In this document: in pieces, positions 8,237 through 48,437 of the stretch | How positions within the stretch are numbered: the first letter of the stretch is position 1 | How the letters are laid out: the number at the start of each line of letters is the position of its first letter | IMG/VR virus record: IMGVR_UViG_3300046804_004030 | Location: 1-55,385 of that record | Length of the DNA: 55,385 nucleotides | Source: a virus | Strand: one strand, 5' to 3' | Notes under the pieces: model-generated | Databases searched by the model: none | Seen by the model: only the letters and a program-made list of their open reading frames with translations | Told to the model about the DNA's origin: nothing | Position numbers and translations under genes: made by a program

Positions 8237-8739
8237 AATCCGAGGCCCCTCACCCCAAGCGCGGCGGGGACAGACAGGGCATCCCAAGCAGAGATTGACA
8301 GGGGAGTGGTGGCTCTCTGGGCTCCGGGCCTGCTCCTGCACCGGGCAGGTTCTTGCGTCGGCAGGAATCTATAAGACCACGACCGGACAAGTCCTCATGG
8401 AAATACCGGAAAAAATTTCAGCCCAGCACTTCTAGCAATTCCAGAATCTTGAACTTTTTGTTGGTGGGAGCTTTGTGGAAGCTGCCGGGGGTTGTGATGG
8501 CTTATTTGTGATGTGCGTGGGTTCACCAATTAAAGCGAAGCCGAAAATGATGGAGGAGCGTGACAACTTTCAAAACAAAGTGGCTTGTAGCGACTAGGGG
8601 AAAACCGGCGTTGGACTAATTTGTATGTCAAGTAAAATATAAGGAGTCTTTGTGGGAAAGGGGAAAAAACCTCGGAAGGACGGGGTGCCAACTACCGGCT
8701 CCAGGGATACCCCACCCCGGCCAACTTACCGGCCGAAAG

Positions 8740-8769
8740 TGTAAACTAACGGCCGACTGGTAGTTTACA
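8740..8769. repeat. Inverted repeat, 9-bp arms
   Basis: TGTAAACTA (8740-8748) and TAGTTTACA (8761-8769) are perfect reverse complements separated by 12 bases that contain GGCCGACTGG. No T-run follows on either strand, so it is more likely a protein-binding site than a terminator. A similar AACTTACCGGCCGA sequence lies just upstream. Confidence 0.6.
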
Positions 8770-8914
8770 TTTAACGCCTAGTTTCCTGACGAAGCTGCCA
8801 GCTCACAGCGTAAGGTTGCGCAACGATCATAAAAGGAAGGGCGAGTAAAAGGAAGCCGGCAACATTAACGGCGAGACTAGAAAGTTTCACGATAGAAAGG
8901 AAGGTTAGAAAGGA

Positions 8915-8945
8915 GGATAGAAAGGGAGCCTAAGGTTAGGCTCCC
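8915..8945 (-). terminator. Intrinsic terminator of the 232-aa gene
   Basis: GGGAGCCTAA (8924-8933) and TTAGGCTCCC (8936-8945) form a stem with perfect pairing; on the minus strand it is followed by TTTCTATCC. It lies 14 bases after the stop of the gene at 8960-9658. Confidence 0.6.
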
Positions 8946-8959
8946 GGTTAAGGTTAAGG

Positions 8960-9658
8960 TCAATCGGTCAGCGAGTCGCTCAGATGCACAGTCTGACCGT
9001 TGATGTAAGCGTAACGACCCGACGCTTCAGCCAGTGCACCCAACAGGGTGATGTTGGCTTGCTGTTCATTCTGAAGACATTTCCAAGACTTTAACTTCTC
9101 GCCAATGGCGGCAATGGTTGGATTGCCCATGGCCTGCAGGATACGGAGCAATGGGAGTCCCTCGCCAGCGGCCATGCTCGGCACCCTGCCCTCCATGCCG
9201 TGGATGAGGCGCAGCATGAACTGAGCAGAGGGGCGACCGCCTGCCTGAGGCGTGGGGATCGGCTGCGACAGCCGGTCTAGGTCGTTTGGGCAGGCTGCCA
9301 GTGACCACGGGAGGGGTGGCAGGGTGACGGTCACGCCGTCAACCGTACGGCGGCGCACCTTCCTCTCGCGGGGGGCACTGACAGGCAGGCTGAAGCCGAT
9401 ACGCTCAGCCGCTGCGACGACAGCCGGCGACCATTCCAGCGCCACACGGGAGGGTCCAGAGACGACCTTGCCGCCACCCTTGCCACTGGCTGGAATGGTT
9501 TGGTAGTCCATGTCTGCGAAGGGGTCGCCTTCAAGGTCTGAGGGGTCAGCCTGAGGGGTCTGCGCCACGATCGGCGGCTGCTCGGCCGCCTGCTCGGCCG
9601 CCTTGATGATCCGCACCGGACCGGCGGGGGTGGATTGGGAACGCTTGCGAGTTGCCAT
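8960..9658 (-). CDS. Orphan hypothetical protein, 232 aa
   Basis: The first 75 residues are disordered by composition (basic, then Ala/Gln/Pro-rich, with a DPFADMDYQTIPASGKGGGK segment). The remainder is folded, with RVALEWSPAVVAAAERIGF, a proline-rich PLPPLPWSLAACPNDLDRL stretch that is shared in style with terminase-adjacent proteins, and a C-terminus ending YAYINGQTVHLSDSLTD. It is transcribed alone from its own promoter and terminator, next to the repeat arrays, so a role in replication or partition is possible. No family is recognised. Confidence 0.75.
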   Translation of the reverse strand: MATRKRSQSTPAGPVRIIKAAEQAAEQPPIVAQTPQADPSDLEGDPFADMDYQTIPASGKGGGKVVSGPSRVALEWSPAVVAAAERIGFSLPVSAPRERKVRRRTVDGVTVTLPPLPWSLAACPNDLDRLSQPIPTPQAGGRPSAQFMLRLIHGMEGRVPSMAAGEGLPLLRILQAMGNPTIAAIGEKLKSWKCLQNEQQANITLLGALAEASGRYAYINGQTVHLSDSLTD

Positions 9659-9717
9659 GGTTGGAACTTGTAAAGGGAACGCCGGGGGGAGCCTATGGCT
9701 CCGCCACCGGTTCGCAC

Positions 9718-9745
9718 ACTATACAACCAAACCAGCAGGATGCAA
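9718..9745 (-). promoter_or_regulatory. Sigma-70-type promoter of the 232-aa gene
   Basis: On the minus strand TTGCAT (9745-9740) and TATAGT (9723-9718) are separated by 16 bases. Transcription would begin near 9711, leaving a leader of about 50 bases. That leader starts with a small hairpin, GGAGCC-ATA-GGCTCC (9690-9704), which could protect the 5' end. Confidence 0.65.
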
Positions 9746-10162
9746 CGGTCCAAGCGCCCAATACTTTATAGATTCTGCGATCAGTGAACCTATCACCTCA
9801 CCTTAGGCGCAGCCAGTATCGGCAGCGAAGCGGAAACTGTAACTTACCTGCCAGGCAGTAAAGTTAAGCTATCTCCACTGTAGGTTACGCTCGATTGTAA
9901 CTGTAACCTCGCGCAGTGTCACCGCGTTACAGTTACGCTAGCCTGTCAGACTTTATAGGTTAGCCTCTCACCTTAGCCTGTAACGTTGCCGTTGTTAGTT
10001 GTAGTTGTTAGCTTAGGATTGCGGCTCGGATAGTGACACCAACACTTCGCACCTTAGTCTGTAAGTTACCGTGCCAGTCTGGCAGGTTAGCTTGCGTCGC
10101 AAGTTACCTATAGTTTAGTTTAGTTTGCATGTTGCTCGACTTAATTAAGTCCCCAGGATAGG
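9746..10162. other. Non-coding region left of the 55-bp array
   Basis: This 417-bp stretch holds no gene. It is rich in GTTAC/GTAAC words and contains the long hairpin at 9897-9936 and short GTTAG-rich runs. Around 10108-10150 there is a weak, degenerate version of the 55-bp unit that follows (GCATGTT at the expected phase), so the array probably once began further left. Together with the arrays it forms a candidate origin or partition region. Confidence 0.6.
9897..9936. repeat. Long imperfect hairpin (cruciform candidate)
   Basis: GTAACTGTAA (9897-9906) pairs with TTACAGTTAC (9927-9936), and inside it CGCG (9910-9913) pairs with CGCG (9923-9926), leaving a 9-base loop and a 3-base bulge. 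The total is 14 pairs in 40 bases. There is no T-run and no adjacent gene end, so a terminator is unlikely; a replication or partition protein site, or a single-strand origin, fits the neighbourhood. Confidence 0.65.
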
Positions 10163-10560
10163 TAACATTTAAGATACTTAGCAAGATGCCGCATGTTAGT
10201 TAATCTTACAACTTAGCTAACATTTAAGATGGCAGCTCAGATGTTGCATGTTAGTTAATTCGACAAGTCAGCTAACATTTAAGATATCCAGGAGATCACC
10301 GCTATTTAGTTAATCTGACAAGTTACCTAACATTTAAGATACTGGGCTAATCGTTGCATGTTAGTTAATCTGACAGATTAGGTAGCATTTAAGATTCCCA
10401 GGGAATCGCTGTTAGTTAGTTAATGTGTCAAGTTAGCTAGTGTTTAAGATAGTTAGCTAATCGTTGTATGTTAGTTAATCCTGCAAGTTAATTAGCTATT
10501 AAGATAGTTAGTGAGTCCTTGTTAGTTAGTTAATCGAGCAACTTAGTTAGTGTTCCTGGG
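10163..10560 (+). repeat. Tandem 55-bp repeat array (7-8 units)
   Basis: The core TAACATTTAAGAT begins at 10163, 10218, 10273, 10328, 10383, 10438, 10493 and, much degraded, 10548: an exact 55-base period. A second block, GTTAGTTAATC, recurs in the same phase at 10195, 10250, 10305, 10360, 10415, 10470 and 10525. Between them the sequence varies. The first four units are best conserved and the array decays to the right. Two conserved boxes at fixed spacing suggest binding by one or two proteins, as in plasmid iterons or partition sites. Confidence 0.9.
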
Positions 10561-10612
10561 CTGGTTAGTTGGCTACTAGCTTGGTTAGCTAACGGTGCTA
10601 GTTAGTTAGCGT

Positions 10613-10835
10613 GAATGCCAGTTAGTCAATGATGAATGTTAGTTAATGATGAATGCAACTTAGTCAGTAGATGAATGGCCTTAGTCAGTGAATGAATGCA
10701 GTTGGTCATGAATGGCAGTTAGTCAGCATGAATGGCGTTTTAGTAAGTGAATGGCTTTTGTAGGTGAATGGCCATTCAAGCAGTTATGAATGGCCTTTGT
10801 TAGTTAGCTATGAATGGCAGTTACTCATGAATGGC
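10613..10835 (+). repeat. GAATGGC short-repeat array
   Basis: TGAATG(GC) occurs about twelve times at intervals of 16-24 bases: near 10613, 10634, 10651, 10673, 10694, 10710, 10730, 10749, 10766, 10788, 10812 and 10829, usually followed by AGTTAGTCA or (C/G)TTTT. The array runs into the 3' end of the RepL-like gene. Further copies lie inside the gene and in a cluster at 24.97-26.2 kb. Confidence 0.85.
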
Positions 10836-11312
10836 AGTCTCGTCCCTGCGGTTCCTATGTAAGTCAAGGTGAATGCAGTTATCAACTGGCTTCTTTTTGT
10901 TTTCTCTGTGAAGCTGCACAGCCTCATCGAAGCACTTAACCAGGAACCCTCGTTTCTTACCAGAGCCACACACCAGGAAGTTAGGGTTAATGATGTGATA
11001 CTTATCTCTTGTTCTGTAGTCAATGAATGGCAGCATTAGTTCTTCCTCCTTGAGGCGTTTAAGTGACAGAACAACGTGATTAGCTTTCTTTTCAATCAAG
11101 TCAGCAACAGCGGCACAGGTAGCTCTGCATCTACCACTGCGCCAGTCAGTCAATGAAATGAACGCAAGTAAGACAGTAATGTCACGATGTTGAATAGCAC
11201 CAGAAGCTGCCAAGTTAACCAACCTAGAAAGCTCAGCAGCGCCAATACGAAAGAAGTTACTTGAGTCATCTTCAAAGCTTTGTTCGTTAGCAGGTGGTGG
11301 ATTGTCAGTCAC
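10821..11312 (-). CDS. RepL-like winged-helix protein, candidate replication initiator
   Basis: The 163-residue product has a winged helix-turn-helix at about residues 44-100 (DITVLLAFISLTDW, CRATCAAVADLIEKK, VVLSLKRLKEEEL) followed by YHIINPNFLVCGSGKKR, which matches the YxINPxLxxxG signature of RepL-type plasmid replication proteins and related phage proteins. The GTG start has AGGAGG eight bases upstream. The gene sits directly beside two repeat arrays. RepL proteins start plasmid replication by binding origin repeats. A plain transcription regulator is the main alternative. Confidence 0.7.
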   Translation of the reverse strand: MTDNPPPANEQSFEDDSSNFFRIGAAELSRLVNLAASGAIQHRDITVLLAFISLTDWRSGRCRATCAAVADLIEKKANHVVLSLKRLKEEELMLPFIDYRTRDKYHIINPNFLVCGSGKKRGFLVKCFDEAVQLHRENKKKPVDNCIHLDLHRNRRDETAIHE

Positions 11313-11549
11313 CTGGAAGGCCTCCTCAGGTAGGGTGGATTGTTAAGGAACACAACAGCCCAGTCATACCAATGAGTCTCATAGTGCTCATGGGTGAGAC
11401 TGAGTCAATGTAGCCCCTGCTCAGCCTAGTGAGTCACTCAACGTTTTACGCGCCACTCTTATTCTCTTAAATAGTTAACAGACAAACGGCCTGGGGGCCT
11501 CCTTAACGGTGGTCGGGCTGACCTTTCTCAGATTGGTCGTGCAGTCAGT

Positions 11550-11602: not shown

Positions 11603-12427
11603 TTAATCAACTTCGGCTTCTTCGATAGCCGCTAGCAGCTGATCCACACCGAGAGCATTGCCCTGTAAGTTTTTACCGACCTCAGCTAGCTTTGCGGCAG
11701 AATTAAGTAGCGAAGGCAAGTCTCTGGTGTCTAGGTCCTGGTCACTATCCAGCATGTTAGTTAGCTTGCGGTTTGCCAAGTAGGCAATACGTGCAGCACT
11801 TAAGCTAAGCTGCTGACCTATCGTTTCCTGTTGCTCACGGTACTCCTCTAGCTTCCTAAGATGGAGCTTATGACGCTCTCCCTCCACCTCAGCCATCCGC
11901 TTGCTAAGCTGGTACCTGTCGAAGTCAGCCGCTCTCTGTAACCAGTTGTTACGTGTTGCGATCTTACGAACCTTATCTAATCCTAAATTTGTAATCTGCG
12001 ATACATATGTTAGTGTACGCCCCCCTCCACACCTAACAAAACAACTGAACAATTCAAATTCTTTGTCAGTCTCAGTTGGTGCAAGGACACTATTTTTAAG
12101 CCAAGTAGCATTAAGGTTAGGGGACCTGTCGGTCTGGTTGGTTAGGTTTTGAGGTTCCGAGAAGGTGTTGCTTTGGTTAACGGCATTTTCTACATAGCTG
12201 GAGGTACTAGTCAGTGAGTGGGTGGGTTCCTGGGGGTCTTGGTCAACTTCTGTAAACTCCTCTTCTACATACTCAATAGTGTCCTCAAGGTTAGTATCCT
12301 CATCATCTTCATACTCACCGAACTCATTTACCTTTCTAAGCCTGCCATCGGCGAACTTGGTGGCGTCCTTTTCAATACGTTCGGCGGAATCCAGTAAGTC
12401 TTCAAAGTCAAAATCTGAAGCCGGCAC
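11603..12427 (-). CDS. Putative small terminase subunit / HTH protein, 274 aa
   Basis: The first 110 residues are acidic and low in complexity. From residue about 115 the sequence fits the DNA-binding part of many small terminase-like proteins: EFELFSCFVRCGGGRTLTYV, ITNLGLDKVRKIATRNNWLQRAADFDRY (a helix-turn-helix followed by W-x-x-R-A-x-x-(Y/F)-D), then a long helical region that would form the oligomer core. Small terminases recognise viral DNA for packaging. No large subunit is in the window. The start is a GTG; its own transcript begins after the terminator at 12489. Confidence 0.6.
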   Translation of the reverse strand: MPASDFDFEDLLDSAERIEKDATKFADGRLRKVNEFGEYEDDEDTNLEDTIEYVEEEFTEVDQDPQEPTHSLTSTSSYVENAVNQSNTFSEPQNLTNQTDRSPNLNATWLKNSVLAPTETDKEFELFSCFVRCGGGRTLTYVSQITNLGLDKVRKIATRNNWLQRAADFDRYQLSKRMAEVEGERHKLHLRKLEEYREQQETIGQQLSLSAARIAYLANRKLTNMLDSDQDLDTRDLPSLLNSAAKLAEVGKNLQGNALGVDQLLAAIEEAEVD

Positions 12428-42717: not shown

Positions 42718-42930
42718 CTTACGCCTGGCCTGAGTCCTGGCCTTATTCTTGGTACTGTTTTTTTGTTTCAGGATCTCCTGCATCTGGGCCTTGATCCTGT
42801 CGATCTCGGCCTGATTCTTCTTGTCGCGCACAGCCTGCAGCGCCTCTTGATAGCCTGGGGCTTCAAGGTCTGGTCGCTCCGCAAAGATCGCAGACCAATC
42901 CGGTGCAGAAGACTTTCTAAGTTCAGCCAT
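42700..42930 (-). CDS. Small basic protein, 76 aa
   Basis: ATG 42930 follows CAGGAGGATT, an ideal ribosome binding site. Product: MAELRKSSAPDWSAIFAERP, then PGYQEALQAVRDKKNQAEID and a strongly basic tail (KKNSTKNKARTQARRKSARV-like). It overlaps the end of dnaB by eight bases. The basic tail suggests DNA binding; a helicase-loader role is only a guess. Confidence 0.7.
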   Translation of the reverse strand: MAELRKSSAPDWSAIFAERPDLEAPGYQEALQAVRDKKNQAEIDRIKAQMQEILKQKNSTKNKARTQARRKSARVQ

Positions 42931-44401
42931 CAATCCTCCTGAGTGTTTCATCAAAAACAATAGAGCTTTGTAGATCTATGGCACAACGAAGTGTGCCGCA
43001 AACGCCATGACGGTTCTTTGCGACACTAATTGCAAGCTCATAGGGATCCTTTGATTCATCGTAATAAGCCGGTCTTAGCATGAACATAACAATATCGGCG
43101 TCTTCTTCAATGCGGCCGGAAGCACGCAAGTCAGAGAGTGTCGGCATCTTATCTGTTCTACTTTCAACACCGCGATTGACCTGACTTAACAGGAAAATGT
43201 CAATGCCAGCTCTAACGGCAAGTTGCTTAAGCGCTCTTGTGACATGACCAATGTTTGACGCTTCTGTATTATTGGCGTCACCAGAGCATCCTTCAATTAG
43301 CTGAAGATAGTCAATAAATACTGCAGATAGCTTGGGCCTTGTTTTAGATAACAAAACGACTTTTGAGGAAATGCCGCCAATGCTCTCGGATGAAGCATCA
43401 TAAATATGGAATCTATTAACAAAAGGAGAATTACGATAGCTCTCAAGCCTCTCGCGTTGATCAGTTGTGTAGCTGCGTTGCCTCAAGTTGTGCGAACGAA
43501 TTGGATTTGTCAGATTCTTGGACATGCTTAAGTTCAAATAGTCATAGCAAGAAATTGCTTTGTACTGAACTTGTCTTTTAGACATTTCAAGACTAAAGAA
43601 AGCAACATCTCCGTGTGAATCAGCCAGCTGCGTGGCAAGAGAGATGGCAATCGTGCTCTTGCCCATCGCTGGCCTTGCAGCAACGACAATCAATCGACCC
43701 GAGTAAGGAGAATTTCTTGAAGCAATGCCACCCTGTATCGCCTCGTCAAGAACCTGCAAGCCAGTGCTGATGGCAATTCCTTGCGGCAGTGGGGCAAGAA
43801 GTTCATCAACAGATGACTGCCAGTCATCATCCTTGCGATCTATCAGCGATATATTATTCCAGGTATCGTGCTGAGCCTCAATAAGTTTTGGAATCTTATC
43901 GAGAATACTGTCTACATCTGGAGGAGCGTTAAAAATATCAAGCATCTCCTCCGAGTTTTGAATCATCTGACGCCTTATCAGCTTGAGGCGCCAAACAGGA
44001 AGGATTGATTCAAAGTTTTGAACAGAGTAAAAGATAGATGGCGAGTTGAGTACGCCTTCTATAAGCTCGCACTCTTTTTCATGCCCACGAATTTTGAGCA
44101 CACGCTCTGCCATAACGGCAATGCTGCCAGGAAGCAGAAACTGAGATTTCGTCGTTCCAGCAAAAAACTTCTTAATTACAAAGAATATTGCCTTCCTGTG
44201 AACTTCGGTAAACCAACTGTCATCAATCGTTGAGAAGACTTTCATGAGTCCCTCTACGTCGCCCTTATTGGGCTCTCCCTCAAGCAAAAAGCAAGACGAA
44301 GCAAGAAAGCAGGTCTCAAATTCGTCAGTATCCCATGTCTGAATACCGCTGAGAAGATCTTCAAGTGTCTTCTCTAGTGACTTTTGACCTTTCTGGCTCA
44401 T
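42923..44401 (-). CDS. dnaB: DnaB-type replicative helicase
   Basis: The 492-residue product has the N-terminal DnaB domain (about 20-150) and the RecA-like helicase core: ARPAMGKST Walker A (242-250), SLEMS (270-274), VFIDYLQL Walker B (361-368), SQVNRG (406-411) and RASGRIEEDADIVMFM (426-441). It unwinds DNA ahead of the phage fork as a hexamer. It overlaps the gene upstream by four bases. Confidence 0.95.
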   Translation of the reverse strand: MSQKGQKSLEKTLEDLLSGIQTWDTDEFETCFLASSCFLLEGEPNKGDVEGLMKVFSTIDDSWFTEVHRKAIFFVIKKFFAGTTKSQFLLPGSIAVMAERVLKIRGHEKECELIEGVLNSPSIFYSVQNFESILPVWRLKLIRRQMIQNSEEMLDIFNAPPDVDSILDKIPKLIEAQHDTWNNISLIDRKDDDWQSSVDELLAPLPQGIAISTGLQVLDEAIQGGIASRNSPYSGRLIVVAARPAMGKSTIAISLATQLADSHGDVAFFSLEMSKRQVQYKAISCYDYLNLSMSKNLTNPIRSHNLRQRSYTTDQRERLESYRNSPFVNRFHIYDASSESIGGISSKVVLLSKTRPKLSAVFIDYLQLIEGCSGDANNTEASNIGHVTRALKQLAVRAGIDIFLLSQVNRGVESRTDKMPTLSDLRASGRIEEDADIVMFMLRPAYYDESKDPYELAISVAKNRHGVCGTLRCAIDLQSSIVFDETLRRIDG

Positions 44402-45066
44402 TTCAGTGTATAGCTGATTTCAGACATTGCTGGCTTAAAGGACTTTCCATGTTTTTCTTTTGCCAGCTTATCTACTGTATCTTTATAGCCAGCAAAGCCA
44501 AGAGACTGCCAGGACTTTTCAGCAGCAAGTTCGCAAAGCTCTGCAATAACTTTCTGATCCCTTGCGTATCTCAGTGCCGTTATGGACCTGGACGTGATTT
44601 CCCACTCCAGAGACGGATGGGCCTTCAGGCGCCTCGCCAGCCACCGCTCCAGCAGCTCTCGATGGGGCTCCAGCCATGGCTCAAGGGCAATGGGCTCAGC
44701 CGGTGCCGATGGCCTGCTGGAGCGCCTCCTGGGGGCCTGCGGGATGAGCTGGTCGGCCAGATCCGGCAGATCGGTGAAGACGTAGAAAGCCTCTCCATTT
44801 TCAGAAAACTTTTTCAAGTAACCAAGTGAAAGCAGTTCCCTGAGAGCTTCGCTAATAACTTTCGCGTCTTCACTTCCATGTGAAGCGATCCAGTTTTTAG
44901 TGAAAGATTTTGTCGAAGAAAGACAAGTCAAAAGCACACCCTTTGCGGTGTAGCTCATTGAAGTGTTAGATAGCAATGAACTCCTGACAACAACAAAATC
45001 AGCAGCACTTGACTTGGCAGAAAACATCGGCTGGCACTGTTTCTTGCCAGAAGCTTCCCGAGGCAT
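44398..45066 (-). CDS. Winged-helix replication protein, putative helicase loader
   Basis: The N-terminal third has a winged helix (SYTAKGVLLTCLSSTKSF, SHGSEDAKVISEALRELLSL, GYLKKF), as in phage replication O- and DnaD-like proteins. A proline- and Ser-rich linker with a PLEPWLEPH-like repeat follows, then a helical C-terminal part (ERWLARRLKAHPSLEW), typical of the helicase-binding end. It sits directly upstream of dnaB, the usual place of an initiator or loader. Confidence 0.7.
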   Translation of the reverse strand: MPREASGKKQCQPMFSAKSSAADFVVVRSSLLSNTSMSYTAKGVLLTCLSSTKSFTKNWIASHGSEDAKVISEALRELLSLGYLKKFSENGEAFYVFTDLPDLADQLIPQAPRRRSSRPSAPAEPIALEPWLEPHRELLERWLARRLKAHPSLEWEITSRSITALRYARDQKVIAELCELAAEKSWQSLGFAGYKDTVDKLAKEKHGKSFKPAMSEISYTLK

Positions 45067-46779: not shown

Positions 46780-47499
46780 ATGGATCCACGGTTCCGGGTG
46801 GAGACGATCGCGGCAACGCCCGAGCCGAATCGGCTGGTCTGGCGGGCGCTACACACCGACTACTCAGAAGATTTCATCGCTGACCAAGAAGCGCCAGATG
46901 AAGGAAGGGCCGGTGAAATCTTTATCAAGAGACTTCTAAGTGCAGATCGCGGGCACTTTGGATGCGTAGAGCATCCGCAAATCTCATTTGCTGTTGGATG
47001 GTTTCCGCATTCCGTGATGCAACAGGCTCGTACACATCGCGTATCAGTTAGTTTCGATGTAATGTCGGGGCGCTATACGGGACAAAGAATTCTTGACGTA
47101 GTAAGCGGTAAACGGGAACTTGAGGAAGTCTTCTATCTTAGGCCACTAGGCAACTACTCGGACAGACAGGGCAAGAAATATGAGTACACCGAAGATTGGC
47201 GTGCGTTCGATCTGAAGGAGTGCATGAACGCTGCACGCATCTACGCCGATAAGATTGCAGAAGGCTTCGCCGAAGAACATGCAAGGGGTATGGTTCCCTT
47301 TGATTTCAGGCAACACTTTGTCGTCAGCTTCAATGCTCGCTCGCTGTGCCACTTTCTTGATTTGCGTAGCAAGGCTGATGCACAGATCGAGATCCGCTGG
47401 CTTTGTGAGTTGCTCATGCCGAAATTCAAGGAATGGATGCCTGAGCTTGCCGAATGGTACGCCAGCCACAGATATGGAAAAGCGAGGCTGGCACCATGA
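46780..47499 (+). CDS. thyX: Flavin-dependent thymidylate synthase
   Basis: I prefer ATG 46780 (MDPRFRVETI), the usual start for cyanobacterial ThyX, over a GTG at 46750. The 239-residue product has the ThyX signature RTHRVSVSFDVMSGRY (84-99) and GHFGCVEHPQISF (58-70). The enzyme makes dTMP from dUMP with FAD. The stop overlaps the sigma factor start (ATGA). ThyX of this type, not ThyA, is the cyanobacterial form. Confidence 0.95.
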   Translation: MDPRFRVETIAATPEPNRLVWRALHTDYSEDFIADQEAPDEGRAGEIFIKRLLSADRGHFGCVEHPQISFAVGWFPHSVMQQARTHRVSVSFDVMSGRYTGQRILDVVSGKRELEEVFYLRPLGNYSDRQGKKYEYTEDWRAFDLKECMNAARIYADKIAEGFAEEHARGMVPFDFRQHFVVSFNARSLCHFLDLRSKADAQIEIRWLCELLMPKFKEWMPELAEWYASHRYGKARLAP

Positions 47500-48437
47500 C
47501 ATGCGAAGACTACTTAAGGGATATAGGCCGCGTGCCTTTGCTGACAAGCGAAGAAGAGATTGTCCTTGGCAATAGTGTCCAGACCATGATTCGCCTGCTA
47601 GAGGGCAAGGGTGTCACCCATCAGCTTTCGGCAAGCAATCTTGACGAAGCACTGGAGCAACTCAACGGCCAGGAGAGGCGAATCGTCAGGAATGGGCTGA
47701 GAGCAAGAAACCGCATGGTTTCAGCTAACATGCGTCTTGTAGTTGCCATAGCAAAGAAGTACGTCAATAAACAGGTTCACATGACAATGCAAGATCTGAT
47801 CCAAGAAGGTGCGATCGGTCTTGCAAGAGCTGCTGAAAAGTTTGACCCAGCGCGAGGATACAAGTTTTCCACCTACGCCTATCTGTGGATCAAGCAGGGG
47901 ATGACGAGGGGATGCGAAGCCCAGGAGGGAATGATCAAGCTCCCGGCGCATCTCCAGCGACTAATCAGGAAGGCTGCTGAGGTGCGGATTCGCCTGGCTG
48001 CAAAGCTTGGCAGAGAGCCAAGCTTCAAAGAACTGTCGGATGAGATGGGTGAAGCTGATCACGACAAGCTGAGAAGCATCATCTCAATGCACATGCTGAT
48101 GTCACCGGCAATTATTTCGATTGACATCAAGGCAGAAGGAAATGATAGGTCATTCCTGTCGCTGTCTGATATTTTGAATACAGATGACGAAAGTGAAATT
48201 AGAGAGTCAGAAGAAGACGCATCAAAGCTAAACTTTGTAATGCTTGCAATTCAGGCTCTTGATCCAGTTGACAGAGAGCTAATTACGAGAAAGTACGGGA
48301 TTGGCTGCGAACCAGTTTCTATCAAAGAACTTGCAAGAATGACAGAGCTTGCGCCGCAGGTGATACGAGAGCGACAGCAGCTGGCAGCAGCAAAGATTCG
48401 ATATGTGGTTACGAGCTTTGTAGCGCCAGCTATTTGA
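47496..48437 (+). CDS. Sigma-70 family RNA polymerase sigma factor
   Basis: I chose ATG 47496, which overlaps the thyX stop. The 313-residue product has region 1.2 (YLRDIGRVPLLTSEEEIVLG, 6-25), region 2 (NMRLVVAIAKKYV to ARGYKFSTYAYLWIKQGMTR, 78-138), region 3 (LPAHLQRLIRKAAEVR, 149-164) and region 4 (LDPVDRELITRKYG and ELARMTELAPQVIRERQQL, 252 onward). This is the group-2 layout of cyanobacteria, not a short extracytoplasmic factor. It would direct host polymerase to phage promoters. A terminator follows. Confidence 0.9.
   Translation: MTCEDYLRDIGRVPLLTSEEEIVLGNSVQTMIRLLEGKGVTHQLSASNLDEALEQLNGQERRIVRNGLRARNRMVSANMRLVVAIAKKYVNKQVHMTMQDLIQEGAIGLARAAEKFDPARGYKFSTYAYLWIKQGMTRGCEAQEGMIKLPAHLQRLIRKAAEVRIRLAAKLGREPSFKELSDEMGEADHDKLRSIISMHMLMSPAIISIDIKAEGNDRSFLSLSDILNTDDESEIRESEEDASKLNFVMLAIQALDPVDRELITRKYGIGCEPVSIKELARMTELAPQVIRERQQLAAAKIRYVVTSFVAPAI

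Follow-up and report, generated by a model that had tools for sequence, protein, structure and literature searches.

A directional repeat array that covaries with a neighboring small-terminase homolog: a possible pac-like region in viruses related to cyanophages

Genes and repeats at the locus

The window analyzed here is a 55,385-base viral record (IMG/VR IMGVR_UViG_3300046804_004030). We found neither end repeats nor a TerL gene in this record, so the window may be a fragment of a genome. The hosts are probably cyanobacteria, and the named relatives are cyanophages. On the minus strand, the locus contains, in order, the gene for a small-terminase (TerS) homolog of 274 aa (11603-12427), a 290-bp gap, the gene for a 163-aa winged-helix protein, P0001 (10821-11312), 1,162 non-coding bases (9659-10820) with repeat arrays and a hairpin, and a 232-aa open reading frame (ORF; 8960-9658). 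An earlier reading of this DNA from its letters alone (the sequence-only reading) had described a mostly non-coding 1.15 kb, in agreement with this layout; it was silent on the TerS homolog, which precedes P0001 on the same strand. Direct similarity searches of the locus DNA against known phages gave no match, and neither did an Rfam search.

The protein encoded at 11603-12427 matches phrog_6299 (terminase small subunit) with an E value of 1.3e-11, its tblastn matches include the terS genes of PSS2, S-CBS2, S-CRES1, and CL131, and a profile of its family matches S-CBS2 terS with an E value of 8e-27. By this similarity to annotated terS genes, we assign it as a TerS homolog. Its structural model, with a pTM of only 0.40, has a disordered N terminus, a helix-turn-helix (HTH) at about residues 121 to 159, and two long helices that form a helical hairpin. 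This predicted topology would suit a small terminase, but no terminase was among the PDB matches listed for this model. The gap between TerS and P0001 holds a conserved element (11359-11409) made up of CAGTCATACCAA plus the inverted repeat AGTCTCA/TGAGACT, and GTCATACCAA(GG) is found at this gap in the window and in the related genome G011 and nowhere else in those two. When the upstream regions of relatives were compared, the DNA preceding the winged-helix gene was found to hold conserved palindromic elements, and the element in the window is a candidate operator or promoter. Loci with similar winged-helix genes also tend to have similar gaps between TerS and that gene, so the gap partly follows the gene.

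The first array consists of 14 directional copies of CATTCA on the minus strand (TGAATG on the plus strand; 10612-10875). GAATG occurs 13 times at 10600-10850, compared to 0.6 expected and a maximum of 5 in 2,000 shuffles. A 20-bp GAATGGC array had been proposed here; the array is real, while the strict 20-bp period is not, as the spacing of the GAATG(GC) units is irregular and mostly 15 to 24 bp. A scan of viral contigs for a 20-base repeat pattern found none. The second array (10133-10550, minus strand) is a 55-bp tandem repeat of about seven copies that carries the second motif, with AAATGTTA and CGATT blocks. Its identity of 0.68 at lag 55 and 0.71 at lag 110 is far above the maximum of 0.41 seen at any lag in 500 shuffles, which bears out the tandem array reported earlier. 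The previously noted 40-nt hairpin is also present at 9897-9936, with perfect 11-bp GTAACTGTAAC arms and an 18-nt loop, although by itself it is near chance, since 55 kb of shuffled sequence should contain 0.6 hairpins of this kind. Hairpins of 44 to 56 nt occur at a similar distal place in the related loci L005, L050, L053, L057, L042, and L048. A distal block ending in CAGAATCTATAAAG (9766-9820, minus strand) is common to the window and L042, with a weak local alignment score of 36 against a shuffle maximum of 32, and may be a promoter of the next gene. That gene, the 232-aa ORF bounding the array, matched no known family in our family searches. About 700 non-coding bases at 8254-8960 have strong predicted folding, with no Rfam match and no blastn match among the compared loci, and a tRNA-Arg (TCT) gene is located at 2117-2190.

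The winged-helix protein and its family

P0001 is an open frame with a GTG start. The Y-x-I-N-P-x-x-x-x-x-G signature on which the sequence-only reading had based a RepL-like assignment is present in a form one residue longer, Y-H-I-I-N-P-N-F-L-V-C-G. P0001 itself matched no Pfam family, RepL (PF05732) included, while 9 of its 23 relatives matched RepL weakly and a single one, L009 from a T7-like phage contig, exceeded the cut-off (21.5 bits, cut-off 20.3). Thus, the RepL resemblance holds weakly for the family and not for P0001. An AlphaFold model of P0001 (mean pLDDT, 83) predicts a winged helix, and its top PDB matches are MepR/MarR proteins, at a probability of 0.9 to 1.0 and with low global TM-scores. 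We classify the modeled protein as a MarR-type winged helix, its fold being as much MarR-like as RepL-like. P0001 and its relatives resemble RepL plasmid replication proteins in having a winged helix followed by an INP motif and in the weak profile matches, but P0001 differs in lacking a match of its own, and nothing indicates that the repeats are its target.

Single-sequence scans found no relatives of P0001 or TerS; alignments and the homolog in Synechococcus phage S-SRP02 opened the family. This hypothetical protein of S-SRP02 is the nearest named relative of P0001 (E value of 8e-10). Its gene is separated by one small ORF from maturase B (TerL), which lies downstream, and nearly all of the roughly 30 related T7-like contigs share this arrangement. 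These T7-like cyanopodoviruses therefore have the same winged-helix family just before a terminase gene, but their loci contain no CATTCA array and instead have tandem CCTAGG sites upstream. Tandem CCTAGG is found upstream of the P0001-family gene in L002 and the T7-like loci and also near the genes for MarR and SSB, which may point to a regulon; because of these additional sites, we set aside CCTAGG in the T7-like phages as an operator of the P0001 family. Members of the siphovirus lineage carry, after TerS, a gene from one of three winged-helix subfamilies; the profile of the P0001 group and a joint profile of the other two subfamilies align over the winged helix and the INP motif.

Recurrence of the array and its association with TerS

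A search with a two-sequence TerS alignment yielded 25 loci, one of them being the contig of L005 again. In every locus read that extends far enough, a winged-helix gene comes next after TerS, and then non-coding DNA rich in repeats. The window, L005, and most other contigs with TerS share the order TerS, winged-helix gene, array, and across about 20 such viral contigs, TerS, the winged-helix gene, the directional CATTCA array, the second array, and an ORF recur in this order. The ORF after the array has 200 to 250 aa in the relatives, and the window ORF is unlike its L005 or L006 counterparts in sequence. Where TerL was found in TerS-bearing contigs, it lies 3 to 28 kb further on; in several contigs, it was not found.

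Of the 19 array regions compared, 18 come with TerS, and the remaining one, L006, begins inside the winged-helix gene. All 19 contain CATTCA, although only one copy is left in L051, and 187 of the 194 copies are on the TerS strand and 7 are reversed (6.8 expected). The second motif, AAATGYTA, occurs 55 times in the relatives, compared to 1.6 expected. Five genomes were compared, and each has its densest CATTCA cluster at the array place. The cultured phages with a related TerS (PSS2, S-CBS2, S-CRES1, and CL131) have terS adjoining terL and no array in the stretches examined, so the array locus seems characteristic of a lineage not yet in culture.

Pairwise array and protein similarities were compared once with TerL left out of the comparison (18 loci) and once with TerL included (13 loci). 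We found that array similarity follows TerS (partial Mantel, 0.64 to 0.76; P = 0.0005), also when both the winged-helix protein and TerL are controlled for (0.65 to 0.69; P = 0.001 to 0.002), while the partial Mantel value for arrays and the winged-helix protein is about 0. The gene between TerS and the array has been exchanged among the three subfamilies while both neighbors stayed. In one natural swap, L005 and L057 have a similarity of 1.00 in the TerS C terminus, 0.07 in the winged-helix protein, and 0.70 in the array. Likewise, the winged-helix gene of L039, the closest relative of the window, is from a different subfamily than P0001, and the arrays nonetheless align (score of 85, shuffle maximum of 27). 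The link between protein and repeats proposed earlier is not supported, given these swaps beside the same array and the T7-like relatives without one. As a counter-example to the TerS association, L055 and L057 are alike in TerS (0.98) and the winged-helix protein (0.95), but their arrays have a similarity of only 0.06, with mainly CATTCA in common. Shared ancestry and linkage may account for part of the correlation between TerS and array.

Candidate roles of the array

We regard it as an even call that the array locus is a pac-like packaging-initiation region of this cyanobacterial siphovirus lineage. A packaging start is more likely than a plasmid-like origin because the array adjoins TerS, recurs there, and follows TerS and not the RepL-like protein. 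As judged from the letters, the repeats are close to terS and conserved with it, with one winged-helix gene between. In this reading, the directional CATTCA array is where TerS would assemble, the second array and the distal hairpin would be accessory sites, and TerS would recruit TerL for a first cut and packaging in one direction. P0001 would be a locally acting regulator, probably of its own and terminase expression via the element upstream of it, together with which it would be exchanged between phages.

A regulatory hub, in which the arrays are operators or sites for a transcription factor that controls late-gene onset (P0001, the phage sigma factor encoded at 47454-48437, or a host protein), and in which the adjacency to TerS is incidental, appears unlikely. 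The presence of the sigma factor, the fold of P0001, which resembles MepR/MarR repressors, the palindromic elements upstream of the winged-helix gene, and the promoter-like distal block are consistent with it. However, the densest cluster is at one place per genome and not at other promoters, the array does not go with the exchanged regulator, and many strictly directional copies would be unusual for operators.

The origin function suggested by the sequence-only reading, with P0001 or a relative acting as a RepL-type initiator on the arrays as iterons of a second or plasmid-like replicon, we consider quite improbable. The weak RepL matches in the family, weak PHROG matches to replication initiators, and the AT-richer repeat region in several relatives point toward it. 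Against it, array similarity does not track the winged-helix protein, T7-like family members lack arrays, and the window encodes an initiator-DnaB pair (42923-45066) separate from the array locus. We found no iterons near these genes in the window. GC skew also disfavors an origin at the array, as the array region in three large related genomes (G006, G011, and G018) is the strongest plus-to-minus (G-rich to C-rich) switch, a cumulative maximum and not a minimum, a polarity that fits a terminus or genome end rather than a bacterial-type origin. Gene direction is unchanged at the array in G011 and G018, which have terminal direct repeats (123 and 127 bases, respectively) and are therefore probably complete circular assemblies. 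The skew minimum is close to DnaB in G006 and G011, though not in G018; in the window, it falls about 2 kb or less from the initiator-DnaB pair. The switch at the window array is weak (top 4 to 9% of positions), and third-position skew does not fall there, unlike in most relatives. Because gene direction changes at the skew minimum of the window, we set aside window-only skew as evidence for an origin. The phage-plasmid life style suggested along with an origin is not supported either: we found no ParA/ParB over the cut-off in 11 records (the window itself may be a fragment) and an integrase over the cut-off in only one of them, no plasmid relatives of P0001 by tblastn, and no TerS relatives in a pattern-based scan of 84,980 bacterial and archaeal genomes.

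A replication terminus or recombination hot spot, where fork ending or strand exchange aids module swapping with no role in packaging, would account for the skew switch and for how often the gene between TerS and the array is swapped, and the phage does carry recombinase and exonuclease genes, but this reading is very improbable, since it leaves the direction and conservation of CATTCA and the steady link to TerS unexplained.

We favor the packaging-site reading because it best explains the position, the direction, and the link with TerS. The L055/L057 arrays, the single CATTCA of L051, the cultured phages without an array, the absent TerL, and the weak skew in the window argue against it. The pac site of phage P1 resembles the CATTCA array in having several hexamer copies near a packaging gene; it has another motif, lies inside that gene, and has no winged-helix neighbor. 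In SPP1, the direct repeats of pac adjoin terS (PMC4737164), and in SPP1 and SF6, a TerS with an HTH is believed to recognize this region and so start packaging (PMC4737164, PMC9611059). In contrast to the window, with its 1.2-kb non-coding array after TerS and an exchangeable winged-helix gene, the repeats of those phages are at promoters and the start of terS. The TerS domains of SF6 bind their own pac repeats non-specifically (PMC4737164), which counts against a pac reading here. Apart from those of a few model phages, the target sites of small terminases are poorly defined, and this candidate is large, directional, and conserved in motif in about 20 uncultured phage contigs. The natural gene swaps already separate two candidate binding proteins, making DNA finding by TerS directly testable in a new lineage, and the packaging-site reading corrects a label that would have made these phages phage-plasmids. 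A further reading, quite improbable, is a packaging-recognition locus whose DNA site stays with TerS and whose winged-helix gene is swapped among three subfamilies, perhaps because this gene determines how specific packaging or immunity is toward related phages or satellites; members of its family also lie beside terminase genes in the unrelated T7-like lineage.

Among loci with near-identical TerS (L049-L063), the TerL type (58% versus 90%+ identity) and the post-array ORF have also been exchanged. The G008 TerL aligns in two pieces, with both matches reporting an 832-aa open frame, and the G005 TerL (L073:8173-10047) is interrupted in frame by an insertion in which an intein splicing domain was recognized (36.5 bits, cut-off 35.8).
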